This document shows, piece by piece, positions 42,412 through 47,858 of a DNA stretch of 47,858 nucleotides. The stretch's first letter is position 1, and the number at the start of each line of letters is the position of its first letter. The notes beneath the pieces were generated by a model that searched no databases, was not told the origin of the DNA, and saw nothing but the letters and a program-made list of their open reading frames with translations. This stretch comes from an uncultured delta proteobacterium. GTDB taxonomy: Bacteria; Desulfobacterota; Desulfobulbia; Desulfobulbales; Desulfocapsaceae. Location of the stretch: positions 1 to 47,858 of the forward strand of contig CAIQWD010000004.1 of assembly GCA_903875445.1 (NCBI GenBank), given 5' to 3'. The position numbers and the translations under genes were made by a program.

Positions 42412-44136
42412 ATGGCTCGAAAAATATACAACGGCGGTGAATATCTGGTGCAGAACATCAATTGCCGGGATGTGTTTACTCCAGAGGATTTCACTGACGA
42501 ACATAAACAGATTGCCGAGACCATCGAGCAATTTGTAGCTGGCGAAATCCTGCCAATCAACGAGGCGATCGAGTCGAAGAATTTCGATCTGGTGGTGCAA
42601 AAACTAAAAGAATGCGCCGAACTCGGACTGATGATGATCGATACGCCGGAACTGTACGGTGGGCTCGAACTCGACAAGGCGACCAGCATGCTGGTCATGG
42701 AAAAAATGGCCTTCGCCCGGAATTTTGGCTTGTCCTACATGGTTCATACCGGCATCGGCATGTTGCCGTTGGTGTTTTACGGCACCGCTCGGCAGAAAGA
42801 TCGCTATCTGCGCAAACTGATCCATGCGGAAATGATCGGCGCCTACTGTCTGACCGAACCGGGCTCCGGTTCCGATGCCCTCGGTGCGAAAACGACGGCG
42901 ATGCTCTCTGCCGACGGCAGCCACTATGTCCTTAGCGGCACCAAGCAATTCTGCTCCAATGCCGGGTTCGCCGATCTGTTTACGGTCTTCGCCAAGGTCG
43001 ACAAGGTCCACTTTACCGCCTTTCTGGTAGAACGCATCTTTGCCGGCCTGGAATTTGGCCCGGAAGAAAAAAAAATGGGCATGCACGGTTCTTCCACCCG
43101 CCAGGTTATACTTGATAATGTCCGCGTACCGGTTGAGAATGTTCTTGGTGAGGTCGGTAAAGGGCATAAGATCGCTTTCAACGTTTTAAACGTCGGACGT
43201 TTCAAGCTCGGGGCGTTCTGTGTGGGACAGGAAAAATACGCACTATCTGAAGGGGCGCGTTATGCCAATGAACGTCAGCAGTTCAATGTCCTGATCAGCA
43301 GTTTCGGGGCCATCCGCGAGAAGCTCGCCGATGTGACGGCCATGACTTTTGCCTCCGAAGCTGTCGTTTACCGGCTGGCCGGTCTGCTTGATGATCGTTT
43401 GGCGACTATCGACAAAGGCATTGAAAATTATTACACCCTGTACCTGAAGGGGATCGAGGAATACGCGGCCGAATGCGCCCTGACCAAAGTCTTCTGCAGC
43501 GAGTCGGCAGCAAAAAGCATTGACGAAATGCTGCAGGTGCACGGCGGGTACGGCTATATCGCCGAGTACCCCATCGAGCAACTGTATCGTGATGAGCGGG
43601 TGCAGAGGATCTATGAGGGGACCAACGAGATCAACCGCATACTGATTCCCAGTCTTCTGATCCGCAAAGAAATCGGAGGAAAGGCGCTTGGTCCAGGGTT
43701 CGAAATTGCCGAGACTGGAGACTTTGCAGCGGAAAAACATCTCTTGCAGGGGATGAAACGGACTTATCTGGCCCTCACCGATCATATCGTCAAGGTGTTC
43801 GGTCCCGGGATTACCGGCGAACAGGAAATTCTCCTGGCTCTAGCCGACACGGCAATTCAGATATTCGGCCTGGAAAGCGCCGTGTTGCGCGCGGAAAAGT
43901 CCTCTCTTGCGGCAACGGAGAAAAAGCAGGAACTGTATCGGGCGGTGGTCACGTTGTGTACCTTCACGGCAAGACAACATTTTGTCAACGCCGCCGAAAA
44001 ATGTGCGGTGTTCCTTGGCAATGATTCGCCGCTTGCCGCAATGAAAGCTGTAACTTCCTACAAGACCAGAGGCCTGCTGGCCGCCAAACAACTGATTGCC
44101 AAAGCCACCAGCCAGGCAGAAAGGTACATTTTCTAG
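42412..44136 (+). CDS. Acyl-CoA dehydrogenase (VLCAD/ACAD9-like length)
   Basis: 574 residues; longer than the 380 of simple acyl-CoA dehydrogenases, with a C-terminal extension as in very-long-chain types. FAD and substrate motifs: AYCLTEPGSGSDALG, the VLSGTKQFCSNAG strand and KVFCSESA. Catalytic base Glu in RVQRIYEGTNEINR. C-terminal about 150 residues form an added helical domain. Introduces the trans-2 double bond in acyl-CoA beta-oxidation, giving electrons to ETF. ATG 42412 has AAGAGGAA upstream. ETF genes are not in the window. Confidence 0.92.
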   Translation: MARKIYNGGEYLVQNINCRDVFTPEDFTDEHKQIAETIEQFVAGEILPINEAIESKNFDLVVQKLKECAELGLMMIDTPELYGGLELDKATSMLVMEKMAFARNFGLSYMVHTGIGMLPLVFYGTARQKDRYLRKLIHAEMIGAYCLTEPGSGSDALGAKTTAMLSADGSHYVLSGTKQFCSNAGFADLFTVFAKVDKVHFTAFLVERIFAGLEFGPEEKKMGMHGSSTRQVILDNVRVPVENVLGEVGKGHKIAFNVLNVGRFKLGAFCVGQEKYALSEGARYANERQQFNVLISSFGAIREKLADVTAMTFASEAVVYRLAGLLDDRLATIDKGIENYYTLYLKGIEEYAAECALTKVFCSESAAKSIDEMLQVHGGYGYIAEYPIEQLYRDERVQRIYEGTNEINRILIPSLLIRKEIGGKALGPGFEIAETGDFAAEKHLLQGMKRTYLALTDHIVKVFGPGITGEQEILLALADTAIQIFGLESAVLRAEKSSLAATEKKQELYRAVVTLCTFTARQHFVNAAEKCAVFLGNDSPLAAMKAVTSYKTRGLLAAKQLIAKATSQAERYIF

Positions 44137-44195
44137 GGAATATTCACCGGTTTTGCGCTCGGAAATCGCTCCAAGGAAGATAGAGGAGGTGTGAA

Positions 44196-44667
44196 ATCGG
44201 GTTTATCGACATTCTCAGCACCTTTATCCAGGTGATCAACGTCAACCTGATTGGAACCTTCAACATGGTTCGTCTTGCAGCAGATGTGATGAGCAAAGGA
44301 CAGCCGAACGCCGACGGCGAGAGGGGAATCATTGTCAATACTGCCTCTGTCGCTGCCTTTGACGGCCAGATAGGCCAGGCCGCCTATGCCGGTTCGAAAG
44401 GCGGAGTGGTCGCGATGACCTTACCTCTGGCACATGAGTTGGCGCGCTCTGGTATCCGGGTTATGACAATTGCCCCCGGCATTTTCGAAACGCCGATGTT
44501 GCTTGGGCTGCCGCAGGATGTGCAGGATTCTCTGGGCAAGACGGTCCCGTTCCCGTCACGACTGGGCAAGCCTGCGGAATATGCAGCAATGGTGCGCCAC
44601 ATTGTCGAAAACGCCTATTTGAACGGCGAGGTAATCCGCCTCGATGGCGCCATCCGAATGGCAGCGA
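44196..44667 (+). pseudogene. 3-hydroxyacyl-CoA dehydrogenase (HSD10-like SDR), truncated at both ends
   Basis: Homology to HSD17B10-type short-chain dehydrogenases begins abruptly at [16 protein letters not shown] and includes [23 protein letters not shown] (Ser-Tyr-Lys site) and ends [10 protein letters not shown]. The whole N-terminal NAD-binding part (TGxxxGxG, about 75 residues) is missing, although a perfect GGAGG ribosome site (44184-44188) survives just in front of the break. At the other end the normal stop is gone: the frame runs on as unrelated sequence to 44918. The product cannot bind NAD; not a functional enzyme. Confidence 0.85.
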
Positions 44668-45175
44668 ATAAGCCGTGTTCGGCGCCTACTTCTTGTTCCT
44701 GTGCTCATTTCACTGGGACAAAAAATCGGCTCAATTTTCTTCGGAAATCCGACCTAATCAGGCGGAGGTCGGAATCGAACCATTATATATTAATTTGTTT
44801 AATCAATATATTAGGAACGAACAAAAAATTGCATAGGGAAAAACACTCACATCAGTACACACAAAGTGTAGCCTCTGCACAACGATTTTTCGGTATACCT
44901 GGCAGCCTCTTCAGATGATTTTTAGTCTCCAAAAGTTTCATAAGGAAAGGCAGAGACAAGAAGGCCCGACCGAAATATAGATCATGTCTATACCAGGGGA
45001 TCAGAAGTAACTTACCACCGATTTTGATCGAATTATGTGATAAAAATTGGAAAACATGAGTTACGGAATTTCAGCTACTTAAATTGTAATTACTTGGAGG
45101 GGAGGCTATTGAGAAGTTGAGAAGATCGACTAGGGGATTGATCTACACCATTCACAGGTGTGACTGGTGCCAACA
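44668..45175. other. AT-rich region without a supported gene
   Basis: 508 bases after the SDR break. The first 250 are only the run-on of the broken frame. A hairpin (44747-44754 with 44765-44772) and a tRNA T-arm-like string on the minus strand (44760-44780) are the only structures noticed. Nothing protein-like was seen between 44919 and 45175. Confidence 0.5.
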
Positions 45176-45868
45176 TTAGAAAATATTTAAAATAACCTTT
45201 ACATCATTCTCGAACCGAATAGCCTCTGGGCATCTTGGCACAGCACCTTCTGTACAATGCGACCACCCATTAACGATAGATTTGAGATAAAATTTATATT
45301 TGTCTGTTGCCTTTTTCAGTTTTCCTTCTTTGTGTCTGACAAGTCGATGTGGCTTTTGGATCAGGAGGGTCCCTGGTGTTTCCCTGCACTCGATTGGAAG
45401 GTTACCATCAGCATCATCGGGGTATAGAGCGCATAGAACCCATGCTTCAGTATCTTGGGAGGGAACACACAACACAACATTGCTAGGCAAAACCCCACCC
45501 AATAAACTGATTAAGTGTTCTCGTATCCAGTCGCACCTAATCTTTGCAGGTGGACAACCACCATTAAAAATCGGTTGCTTGAAGTCAGGATCAGTTGCGA
45601 CATCAGCATCAATGTGAATGATCAGACAGTCAGCTTGTAGCAATGCTTCATCGCGACCGGCAGCCCCCCCTGCGCGTCTCCCGCTACACCAATCACGCAC
45701 TCCTTTCCATCCATTCGAAAGATTGGAATCTAAGCCATCGACATAAGCAGAAGAGGGTGGCTGGATATGCCTTGAGACAAAATCCTCTCCATCCAACCAA
45801 TGTGAGACCAAGCCTTCAATGAAAATTTGATCAGTGGGACCTTCAGTGACATAATAGACGCGTTTCAT
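45176..45868 (-). CDS. TOPRIM-like (DUF4276-type) protein of an ATPase-TOPRIM pair
   Basis: 230 residues from ATG 45868, which overlaps the ATPase stop (TGATG), the tightest coupling possible. TOPRIM signature: Glu9 in YYVTEGPTDQIFIEG, and Asp87/Asp89 in LIIHIDADV. A DTEAWVLCAL element follows, as in DUF4276/RloB-like proteins. TOPRIM proteins partnered with ABC-type ATPases are usually nucleases (OLD, PARIS AriB, AbiL and Gabija relatives). Probable role: nuclease effector of a defence or DNA-repair module; inferred. A longer frame to 45910 is rejected because of the overlap arrangement. Confidence 0.7.
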   Translation of the reverse strand: MKRVYYVTEGPTDQIFIEGLVSHWLDGEDFVSRHIQPPSSAYVDGLDSNLSNGWKGVRDWCSGRRAGGAAGRDEALLQADCLIIHIDADVATDPDFKQPIFNGGCPPAKIRCDWIREHLISLLGGVLPSNVVLCVPSQDTEAWVLCALYPDDADGNLPIECRETPGTLLIQKPHRLVRHKEGKLKKATDKYKFYLKSIVNGWSHCTEGAVPRCPEAIRFENDVKVILNIF

Positions 45869-47061
45869 CAAATACTCGTAGGTACGCCACCAAATGTACC
45901 CATTACCCATTGTTGTGATAGTGGAATCCCTTCATCGGCCTTCTGCAATAGTTGTTCACTTATTTCAACACGACTAACAATTGTTTTTCCTCGCATGCTT
46001 CGCTCCACTGTGAAGAGTCGTATGTCATTATCTCTAAGTGGAAGTCCATCCAGAACAAGAGGATTGTGGGAAGTTAAAAGAAGCTGCCGATCGTTACGCT
46101 CTTTTACCCACTCACAAAGTTTAGCCGTAAGTGCCTTAGCCAGACGCGGATTAAGTGCATGATCGAAATTATCGACAGCGAAAATTGGTGGGGACTCGGG
46201 GTGATGGGCAAGTACCATCATAAATAGAACATACAAGGCACCTTCGCTTGCATCGTACCCTGAGAGCATATTCCTCCCGTCTGCCATAAATCGATCACGA
46301 AAACGCAAAATTCGTGTTGGCTGAGGGATACTTTTGGAAACTGGAACCTCATCAGGTTTAGTAGCAGTATATGCATTCGCCCAATCGATCAGCTCCAATG
46401 CCGATTTGAGGGGGTTTAGCCTTCTTGCTTTTGGAGAAGCTAAATAGGACAATGAAATTTCTCTTATAGCTTCTGCAAGGCGTCCGCCACTCAATCCAAC
46501 TGGCTCACGAGATTGCATGTCGATTTGGAGCCCTCGCAGAGTTGCAGTATCAGGAGAGTAAATCGCGTACTGCCTCAAGTCTTTCAATAACGAGCTAGCT
46601 AGACCTTTCTCTGGGAGTTCAACAGTCTTGAGGGCAGCGTATCCGGAGTATGGGTCGAGGCGGACTTTCTTTAACCTTTGTGAGCGGCCTACGTGTTTCG
46701 TGATTCCTTCTGTCAATAATTCTGTCTTATATCGCCAAGCGGGTTCGGGCTTTTCTAAAGGATTGAAAAGACCTACTGAAAACACAGCTCCCTCGTTAGA
46801 GGCAGTAAAGCGAATTTCTGATGGTTGCCGACTACCTTTAAAACTTGACTTATAGAGAGCAGGCAGTCCAAGCCTTACGCCACGTCGCAGTAAAGCCTCA
46901 TCATCTACTCGACCATTTGCTGCAGCACCGAGAACTCCGACAGCTTCTAATAGATTACTTTTCCCGCTGCCGTTTGCGCCGATGAAGACATTTACAATGC
47001 CAAAGTCAACACTGACATCTTCAAGCGATTTAAACGATTGAATTGAAATAGTATTTAACAT
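45868..47061 (-). CDS. AAA15/AAA21-type ATPase of an ATPase-TOPRIM pair
   Basis: 397 residues. SMC/ABC-like ATPase head: Walker A GANGSGKS at 28-35 directly after the N-terminal strand LNTISIQSFKSLEDVSVDFG, signature-like SGYDASEGALYVLFMM, Walker B PIFAVDNFDHALNPRLA and switch histidine in LLLTSHNPLVL. Walker B has Asn where Glu is normal. The middle is a short helical insertion, too short for a long coiled coil. This belongs to the family found with TOPRIM partners in anti-phage systems (AriA of PARIS is a comparison, not a proven match). Sits alone in an AT-rich island. Confidence 0.8.
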   Translation of the reverse strand: MLNTISIQSFKSLEDVSVDFGIVNVFIGANGSGKSNLLEAVGVLGAAANGRVDDEALLRRGVRLGLPALYKSSFKGSRQPSEIRFTASNEGAVFSVGLFNPLEKPEPAWRYKTELLTEGITKHVGRSQRLKKVRLDPYSGYAALKTVELPEKGLASSLLKDLRQYAIYSPDTATLRGLQIDMQSREPVGLSGGRLAEAIREISLSYLASPKARRLNPLKSALELIDWANAYTATKPDEVPVSKSIPQPTRILRFRDRFMADGRNMLSGYDASEGALYVLFMMVLAHHPESPPIFAVDNFDHALNPRLAKALTAKLCEWVKERNDRQLLLTSHNPLVLDGLPLRDNDIRLFTVERSMRGKTIVSRVEISEQLLQKADEGIPLSQQWVMGTFGGVPTSI

Positions 47062-47279
47062 GACTCACGTCAGTTGTTGATGATGACATTATTAAAATAG
47101 AATGGTTCCTTTTATAGGTCCAAAAAATAGAAAAGACATCTTCGCAAGCATTCATTATTCCTTAAAATGTGACGCTGATCGAGATTGCATGTTCGCAACA
47201 TAACAGATCATGAACTTATTAGTTGATATCACAACCTAACGCAAGAATAAGTTATTGGATCTCTGAAAAACAATTGCTA
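47062..47279. other. AT-rich upstream region of the ATPase-TOPRIM pair
   Basis: 218 bases, AT-rich, no reading frame of note. Probably holds the promoter for the minus-strand pair. Confidence 0.4.
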
Positions 47280-47475
47280 TCATAGTTGTTTTAGCAAGTC
47301 TTTGACAAAAATATCTGATTTAACCAATCCCGCTCCACCTTCAGTTTGCCAATTTCGCTGTACAGGCGTTTTGCTTTGCTTATGAATCTGCTTCTTCCAT
47401 TGGGTGATGGTGATAAGACATCGCTTTCTAAGGCGACTATAAAAAACCGGTTTCGAAGATCGGATCCGCTCCATT
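47280..47475 (-). mobile_element. Decayed IS3-family transposase OrfA fragment
   Basis: Two overlapping minus-strand frames each hold part of an IS3-type OrfA: TITQWKKQIHKQ in one frame (helix-turn-helix end), and AKRLYSEIGKLKVERDWL in another (leucine-zipper part, family consensus LY-IG-L-VE-DFL). No single frame joins them and no OrfB, inverted repeats or DDE motif is present. An inactive remnant. Confidence 0.7.
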
Positions 47476-47858
47476 TACGGTTGTAAACCGTATCCTTTTC
47501 AGATCGATCTCGCAAGATTTCCTTTGTTCACCCACTATGCTTCTGCCAGGTATTTTGCCTTCTCGGTCCAATTCTATCAACAGCGTTTGCACATCAATTA
47601 AAAGCTCCTCAAAGTCAAGCCAACCATCATCTTACGGCTCAACAATTGTCTTAACAATCTTTTGGGGAGACGGTGGCGCCCTTCCCCGTTTTGACTTGGC
47701 CTCCTCGGACAAACCAAGCTCGTCTTCGACAGTTAGAAAAATATAATTCTGCAATATCAACATAATACGACACTCAAGAAAAGTCTTGGCACTACCTGAC
47801 ACGGGCAATCTGAAGAGCTTTTTCATATTTCCCGAATGGTTGGCGGTAGCGCAACACC
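47437..47858 (-). pseudogene. Unrecognised broken frame with an internal TAA, open at window edge
   Basis: One phase encodes about 64 residues ending KRGRAPPSPQKIVKTIVEP, then TAA (47632-47634), then DDGWLDFEELLIDVQTLLIEL and on to 47437, as if a single protein were interrupted by a stop. The family is not recognised; proximity to the IS3 remnant suggests mobile-element origin. The upstream part may also be frameshifted (a phase reading RYRQPFGKYEKALQIARVR begins at the window edge). Confidence 0.4.

Follow-up and report, generated by a model that had tools for sequence, protein, structure and literature searches.

Pairs of genes that specify an ATPase and a TOPRIM-type protein (ATPase-TOPRIM dyads) form an effector layer that recurs in bacterial immunity, and few of them are understood. 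In PARIS, an assembly of the ATPase keeps a TOPRIM transfer RNA (tRNA) nuclease sequestered, and sensing of a phage protein ends the sequestration (passages in PMC12409363). Dyads of the OLD-ABC type are also described, in the available passages of PMC12839542, as auxiliary or back-up effectors inside BREX and DUF499-type defence operons. The dyad considered here, M31A and M31B, occupies positions 45176 to 47061 on the minus strand of contig CAIQWD010000004.1, from an uncultured delta proteobacterium of the Desulfocapsaceae. (The window, as the term is used below, is this entire contig of 47,858 nucleotides, part of a draft genome of 4.89 Mb in 117 contigs.) An earlier, sequence-only reading had singled out the two genes as a candidate defence system, and we think it likely that they form an ATPase-gated nuclease module of anti-phage defence, of the candidate type PDC-M31.

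The gene pair and the candidate type PDC-M31

PDC-M31 is a computational candidate type of PADLOC-DB 2.0.0, composed of M31A and M31B. The prefix stands for phage defence candidate (PMC12548924); such candidates derive from a guilt-by-embedding approach, and most await validation, as passages of PMC12988326 put it. M31A of the window (P0001) matches the profile PDC-M31A (PDLC04570) with E 3.6e-161 over residues 1-395 of 397 (profile positions 1-394 of 395), and M31B (P0002) matches PDC-M31B (PDLC04571) with E 1.8e-46 over residues 3-226 of 230 (profile positions 5-229 of 233). The next PADLOC family for P0001 follows at E 2.4e-20. Since both family profiles are matched over nearly their full length, the pair is more than two chance open reading frames (ORFs). 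Judged by these matches and by the adjacency of the two genes on one strand, the window pair is a member of this already named candidate type, and no tested feature sets it apart. The sequence-only reading, which had suggested a profile search against known defence families, had seen no clear match between the pair and any named type; the search supplies the name, for both proteins of the window and for each of the 33 aligned pairs described below. (The term PDC-M31 is not used in the literature searched; bioRxiv preprints lay outside that search, and a description may exist there.)

M31A, an OLD/ABC-type ATPase of 397 residues (assigned by translation, PADLOC, Pfam and fold search), is encoded at 45868..47061 on the minus strand. 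M31B, a TOPRIM-type probable nuclease of 230 residues (assigned by PADLOC and by its invariant motif residues), is encoded downstream of it at 45176..45868, minus strand. Stop and start codons overlap by one base in TGATG (45866..45870, minus strand), base 45868 being common to the M31A stop and the M31B ATG, which suggests translational coupling. ORFs, strand, coordinates and overlap are exactly those of the sequence-only reading, and its "AT-rich island" survives in milder form: the gene pair has a guanine plus cytosine (GC) content of 45.4%, where the window as a whole has 50.9%, and values equally low or lower occur in 10% of 1886-bp segments. Promoter-like sites are not in excess (5 found, shuffle mean 6.1); 4 terminator-like sites were found (shuffle mean 2.4) and no terminator is claimed. 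The contig ends ~800 bp past the M31A start, and the upstream neighbourhood is therefore out of view.

The proteins of the pair at locus L001 are 83% (M31A) and 73% (M31B) identical to those of the window. For the same comparison, nonsynonymous differences per site (pN) are 0.10 and 0.18, and synonymous differences per site (pS) are 0.78 and 0.74. Because pN lies far under pS, both genes are judged to be under purifying selection; pS is saturated, so that no ratio of nonsynonymous to synonymous substitution rates (dN/dS) is given for the ATPase.

Twenty-eight loci (in genomes, on plasmids and in one phage record) were examined, and an M31A-type ATPase is present in 27; at the remaining locus, L056, the contig stops short of its expected place. 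The partner ORF lies directly downstream on the same strand in 27/27 ATPase-bearing loci, with gaps of -75 to +16 nt when first possible start codons are used. The aligned set of 33 pairs comprises these loci, the viral contigs L059 and L066-L069, and the window pair. It leaves out viral contig L058, which shares its ATPase with L046 (zero tree distance) and is included in counts of 34; L057 duplicates the contig of L002 and was set aside. M31A is the sole match of all 33 ATPases at E<=1e-30, and M31B models are the sole matches of all 33 partners at E<=1e-8. For relatives retrieved with the M31B profile, the match to M31B is a given; seven pairs located through the ATPase only (L021, L022, L059 and L066-L069) are independent in this respect, and M31B adjoins in 7/7. 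Five viral loci (L060-L064) were set outside the family: their ATPases match the model weakly (best E 8e-23 to 8e-13), and no M31B-type ORF is found at E<=1e-3.

Pairing is thus constant, and distribution is sporadic and mobile. Among 15 genomes of the genus, that of the window alone has the M31 pair, which is found in 7/395 genomes of the phylum, in 4/149 genomes of another family of the phylum (two of the four already among the seven) and in 14/377 genomes of the phylum to which the genome of L002 belongs; every one of these frequencies counts the genome used as search centre. Pairs are also carried on plasmids and viral contigs. Searches of plasmid and phage records with P0002 gave no match; with the proteins of L010 as queries, the partner led to one plasmid and the ATPase to two plasmids and one phage record. 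When viral contigs were scanned with the ATPases of P0001, L059 and L022 singly, no further relative emerged, a signature-motif pattern search of viral contigs returned L059 again and nothing else, and a scan of genome contigs yielded two loci.

Several domain models recognize the ATPase in general terms. In Pfam, P0001 scores above cut-off with AAA_21 (E 1.4e-21), AAA_15, SMC_N and AAA_23 (a Pfam scan of P0002 gives nothing above cut-off), and the N-terminus of M31A is weakly similar to RecF, Rad50 and SMC profiles and sequences. This similarity is what would be expected of an SMC/RecF-like ATPase serving in repair or housekeeping, with a functionally unrelated partner beside it, an account that we regard as very improbable and reject: the best 25 of 47 NCBIfam matches of P0001 are far under their curated cut-offs (for RecF, 41 versus 172 bits), and occurrence in a single genome of the genus, carriage on plasmids and viral contigs, and uniform matching of the aligned ATPases to PDC-M31A alone all speak against it.

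The ATPase and its TOPRIM-type partner

The motifs of M31A, all on the minus strand, are Walker A, GANGSGKS (residues 28-35; 46957..46980); the ABC signature position, DASEGA (residues 270-275; 46237..46254); Walker B, DNFDHALNP (residues 297-305; 46147..46173); and the H-loop, TSHNP (residues 330-334; 46060..46074). Walker A, the DASEGA signature and the THNP of the H-loop are well conserved among M31A proteins, and the second Walker B acid, D300, is invariant in 33. The position expected to hold the catalytic glutamate of Walker B is occupied by Asn298, and the glutamate is absent from all 34 M31A-type ATPases: the Walker B pair is D-N in 31, D-S in two (L022 and L059) and E-N in one (L002). 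In contrast, the glutamate is kept in 31/31 comparators, namely 13/13 ATPases near DUF4276 genes, 3/3 near DUF4435 genes, the one HEC-01-type ATPase of L060 and 14/14 AbiLi proteins. An amide at this position of ABC ATPases usually slows hydrolysis and stabilizes the ATP-bound dimer. A literature search aimed at the Walker B asparagine variant did not show whether it has already been reported. In the passages available, the Walker B motif of Ts OLD is said to depart from the ABC consensus (PMC7049728), and for retron-Eco8 ATPase activity is given as undetectable, yet mutations of the ATP site abolish defence (PMC12887533).

The structural model of M31A is of modest quality (predicted local distance difference test score, pLDDT, 61). 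It retrieves 249 chains of the PDB at E<=1e-3, headed by Septu PtuA, retron-Eco8 OLD (second), SMC, Rad50 and retron PtuA; OLD and GajA are within the first 25, and the template modelling (TM) scores on the query are 0.35-0.48 among the matches listed.

M31B, aligned in 33 sequences, has three motifs (minus strand): TOPRIM motif 1, EGPTD, with E9 and D13 (45830..45844); the TOPRIM DxD, with D87 and D89 (45602..45610); and a distal acidic motif, EAW, with E141 and W143 (45440..45448). Residues E9, G10, D13, P37, G53, D87, D89 and W143 are invariant, and T12, W54, V57, E141 and K186 nearly so; E9, D87 and D89, which the sequence-only reading had picked out, are accordingly present and common to all 33. 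In P2 OLD the metal ligands are E398, E402, D453/D455, D541/E543 and K550 (passages of PMC7049728). By order and spacing E9, D13 (at +4), the DxD and the distal acid of M31B would correspond to these ligands. The best AlphaFold model of M31B has a pLDDT of 81.5 (the five models range from 81.5 to 43.3), and in it E9 and D87 are just behind strands.

Profile-profile comparison of M31B with two groups of DUF4276 proteins (four and five sequences) gives probabilities of 80.2% (220 columns) and 87.8% (125 columns). The two groups score 72% against each other, reversed controls reach <=0.9%, and M31A gives 0.2%. Single DUF4276 sequences (L077 and L081) give 36% and 18%, a two-sequence HEC-01B-like profile 44%, and DUF4435 32% over 20 columns. 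When only 16 core M31B sequences are used, the values for the two DUF4276 groups fall to 42% and 53%. The Pfam model itself (DUF4276, PF14103) has no match in P0002 and none in the window's own genome. At the remote level it is right, on these profile comparisons, to relate M31B to DUF4276, outside Pfam membership; the "DUF4276-like" label of the sequence-only reading stands as distant kinship and fails as a match to the family model.

What M31B cuts might be DNA. The same defence module could use M31B as a DNA nuclease in the style of OLD, GajA or retron-Eco8, nicking or degrading phage and host DNA. Several OLD-type TOPRIM nucleases do cut DNA, and retron-Eco8 degrades both phage and host double-stranded DNA with no dependence on ATP hydrolysis (passages of PMC12887533); the ranks of the retron-Eco8 and GajA chains in the fold search with M31A point the same way. 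The split two-gene layout and the distant DUF4276 kinship are nearer to the AriA/AriB form than to fused OLD, however, and sequence does not fix the substrate. We consider a DNA substrate possible and the less probable choice.

Neighbourhoods of the pair and of its relatives

In two different genomes the M31 pair is inserted between core genes of an Hma operon, in the order HmaB-M31A-M31B-HmaC: at L002 (HmaB, 1.2e-220; HmaC, 6.1e-38, cut by the contig end) and at L044 (HmaB, E 0; HmaC, 6.9e-281). The conjugative Enterobacter plasmid pE5_001 (L020) carries a complete CBASS system (SAVED effector, cyclase, E1-E2 and JAB, with an integrase gene after it), which lies on the strand of the pair and starts ~1.2 kb downstream of it. 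Specificity and methylase genes of a type I restriction-modification system adjoin at L041, together with a weaker match to a restriction subunit, and a Cas12u3/Cas12f-like gene adjoins the pair at L046 and on viral contig L058. On viral contig L059 the pair lies between an HNH gene and terminase-like genes (ORFs read by eye).

Three of these neighbourhoods hold further features. Upstream of HmaB at L044 (511-5154) is an ORF of 1548 residues with no PADLOC match at E<=1e-15, in a place where a further Hma subunit might be expected. At L058 (6352-8900) the Cas12u3/Cas12f-like gene (scanned as L046:10360-11712) is followed by a 14-copy CRISPR-like array with a period of ~66 bases. A human-gut phage scaffold (L022:483-4256) carries, just upstream of its M31 pair, an ORF of 1257 residues that is perhaps an HD-domain protein, as read by eye.

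Neighbouring genes were also counted. With a crude ORF caller, up to two nearest ORFs of >=140 residues on each side within 6 kb were taken at 25 loci; L001, L022 (the phage record) and L056 (no ATPase) had been left out beforehand. (The neighbours of L001 look ordinary, so that its omission leans towards enrichment.) Dropping three ORFs of >1300 residues reduced the neighbour set from 80 to 77, and the controls were 77 of 153 ORFs taken at other places in genomes of this set (19 of 20 regions fetched); two plasmid loci and the genome of L042 have no control regions. At E<=1e-25 the neighbours match 72 PADLOC families and the controls three. The three control families are matched by one ORF each, all RtcR-like, and they are probably one protein, since one control ORF alone has the sigma-54 activator motif. 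Counted as ORFs, at least 10/77 neighbours against 1/77 controls have a match (Fisher p 0.009), the ten being a minimum, with part of the 77 scanned singly. Without the Cas12-like and kinase-like matches the count is 8 against 1 (p 0.034).

Carriage on plasmids and viral contigs also suits a different function, in which the pair is an addiction (toxin-antitoxin) module that stabilizes plasmids, prophages or genomic islands and has no anti-phage role of its own; its two genes overlap, and a TOPRIM nuclease could be toxic. It is hard to see what need for an addiction module there would be between core genes of an Hma operon, where the pair is found twice, and the partner, a 397-residue OLD-type ATPase, belongs to a kind of protein that serves in phage sensing. 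We hold such a function to be unlikely.

The site of the window pair has a history of its own. Two related genomes, G916 and G923, carry the same stretch, with an acyl-CoA dehydrogenase gene, which in G916 is followed by a short-chain dehydrogenase gene that is intact; similarity of the window to them ends at 44701 and 44685, near the end of the dehydrogenase gene. Nucleotide similarity to L001 is confined to the pair (45210-47061), with its limit at the start codon of the ATPase gene. The short-chain dehydrogenase gene of the window (44207-44918) lacks ~340 bp of the 5' part present in G916 and G923 and is remnant-like. Downstream of the pair, the intergenic segments 44768-45006 and 45005-45085 recur in the same genome on contigs C102 (89% identity, near the contig end) and C113 (75%), and are perhaps mobile or repeated DNA. 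At the equivalent site of G916, after the dehydrogenase gene, two ORFs can be read as a split tyrosine recombinase (L138:5067-5913), and the site may be a hotspot. Two ORF remnants upstream of the pair have no Pfam match at E<=0.01, and a further search, with one of them alone, gives two hits, among them a weak one (E 0.06) to an IS3-family transposase; the insertion sequence debris described in the sequence-only reading is borne out to that small extent. The confinement of similarity to the pair, the shortened dehydrogenase gene, the recurring segments and the purifying selection on both genes fit a two-gene cassette that arrived recently beside DNA that is repeated and perhaps mobile.

Proposed action and relation to known systems

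Profile, fold and neighbourhood evidence agree with the original description of the pair as an SMC/OLD-type ATPase head with a TOPRIM-type partner, and with its designation as a candidate defence system. As we picture the module, M31A with ATP bound would assemble into an oligomer, and this assembly would keep the TOPRIM nuclease M31B inactive. Disturbance of the assembly by a phage product would release or activate M31B, which would cut nucleic acid (tRNA or another RNA is the first guess, by analogy with AriB), and the infected cell would cease to support the phage, a presumed abortive outcome. The division of labour, M31A sensing and holding and M31B cutting, is probably correct and is proposed because of the analogy with AriA and AriB of PARIS. 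Because the Walker B glutamate is absent in every member examined, the switch may rest on ATP binding rather than on fast turnover.

Several observations weigh against this picture. The M31B model has no match at E<=1e-3 in a Foldseek search of the PDB and BFVD: chain 8ux9_A of a PARIS complex is second in the PDB, non-significantly (E 0.13, TM 0.21), and among the best 50 matches in BFVD an RloB-like phage protein has the top probability, 0.91, at a non-significant E of 0.18. PDB sequences likewise give nothing at E<=1e-3 with M31B (best E 0.0055, to an FANCL fragment, and 0.3 with the profile). The enrichment of defence genes around relatives, a check that the sequence-only reading had proposed, is found at the level of ORFs and is not significant by locus (6/25 against 1/19 control regions, p 0.12; p 0.21 if L001 is counted as a miss); if the control count were 3/77, the ORF-level p would be 0.08. 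Neighbours at several relatives are ordinary (an MCP, a thiamine pyrophosphate enzyme, triosephosphate isomerase), and no defence gene is in view beside the window copy, whose contig ends ~800 bp upstream. The missing Walker B glutamate could mean that M31A acts in a manner unlike PARIS. Finally, the literature seen contains no phage test of the PDC-M31 family, and for two other candidates, PDC-M63AB and PDC-S04, no defence was found in one study, as reported in passages of PMC12409345.

A more specific version of the ATPase-gated module can be put forward tentatively. M31A might be thought of as a natural "Walker B mutant" that binds ATP and barely hydrolyzes it. The ATP-locked assembly would then be the guard state, which a phage trigger breaks without turnover, freeing a divergent DUF4276-type TOPRIM nuclease; within Hma operons the pair would be a back-up effector that fires once the host operon has been disabled by a phage. 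With the glutamate lost across the family, it becomes testable whether an OLD-type sensor needs ATP hydrolysis or binding alone; the case of retron-Eco8, in which no hydrolysis is detectable, already points to binding (passages of PMC12887533). The two Hma insertions, in different genomes, offer a defined setting in which to ask whether dyads guard a host defence system.

Comparison with known systems leaves the pair outside each of them. Like M31, PARIS has separate, adjacent genes for an OLD-type ATPase and a TOPRIM protein, and the logic of sensor and effector is likely to be similar. AriB of PARIS, a class 4 OLD, is presumably filed under DUF4435; M31B has no DUF4435 match (the alignment is 32% over 20 columns), the DUF4435-adjacent ATPases keep the Walker B glutamate (3/3) and M31A does not, and P0001 matches AriA models at 5.8e-19 at best, against 3.6e-161 for M31A. 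Membership in PARIS is rejected on these grounds. AbiL also has an OLD-type ATPase gene followed by a small TOPRIM-type gene, and the AbiLi profile (14 sequences) is homologous to M31A (hhalign, 99%). By our own reading, however, the AbiLi partner is RloB-like in 9/14 loci, and these nine partners align with M31B at 11% over 8 columns (reversed control, 0.1%); Walker B of AbiLi is DE in 14/14. Membership in AbiL is rejected because the partner in M31 is not RloB-like.

HEC-01 (Hma-embedded candidate 01) resembles M31 in placing an ATPase gene and a small TOPRIM-like gene inside another defence operon. It differs in that P0001 and P0002 match HEC-01A and HEC-01B at 2.4e-20 (best) and 0.012, against 3.6e-161 and 1.8e-46 for M31, on which membership is rejected, and in that Walker B of the HEC-01-type ATPase of L060 is EE. 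(On the viral contig L060:1793-10078 the HEC-01 pair lies between BrxC and a PglX-type methylase, an ATPase-TOPRIM candidate within a BREX operon.) Gabija, in which ATPase and TOPRIM are fused and the helicase GajB lies beside them, is rejected as well: the M31 genes are separate, and the neighbours of the pair are ORFs of <=74 residues to the contig end on one side and the dehydrogenase remnant on the other. A retron with a class 3 OLD would have a reverse transcriptase and a noncoding RNA beside the effector; Rfam gives no match in 44000-47858 and the pair adjoins no large ORF, in a view that ends with the contig 800 bp upstream. Thus, of the PARIS, AbiL and OLD-like architecture seen in the sequence-only reading, the separate ATPase and TOPRIM layout is retained, and membership in PARIS, AbiL or Gabija is not, by the tests made. 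The dyads of PMC12839542, in the passages available, are described in terms that single out neither the M31 family nor its Walker B change.

DUF4276 (PF14103) genes are the remaining comparison. In a sample of the window's own phylum they are matched (E<=0.001) in 19/118 genomes, over the cut-off in 14. Among the DUF4276 loci fetched, a Walker A ORF occurs within the stretch in 13/16, as diverse ATPase-TOPRIM pairs. M31 resembles these modules in having such an ATPase beside a remotely homologous partner, and it differs from them in that all 13 of the nearby ATPases keep the Walker B glutamate. The interest of M31 is the family-wide loss of that glutamate together with the two Hma embeddings; otherwise it is ordinary in kind.

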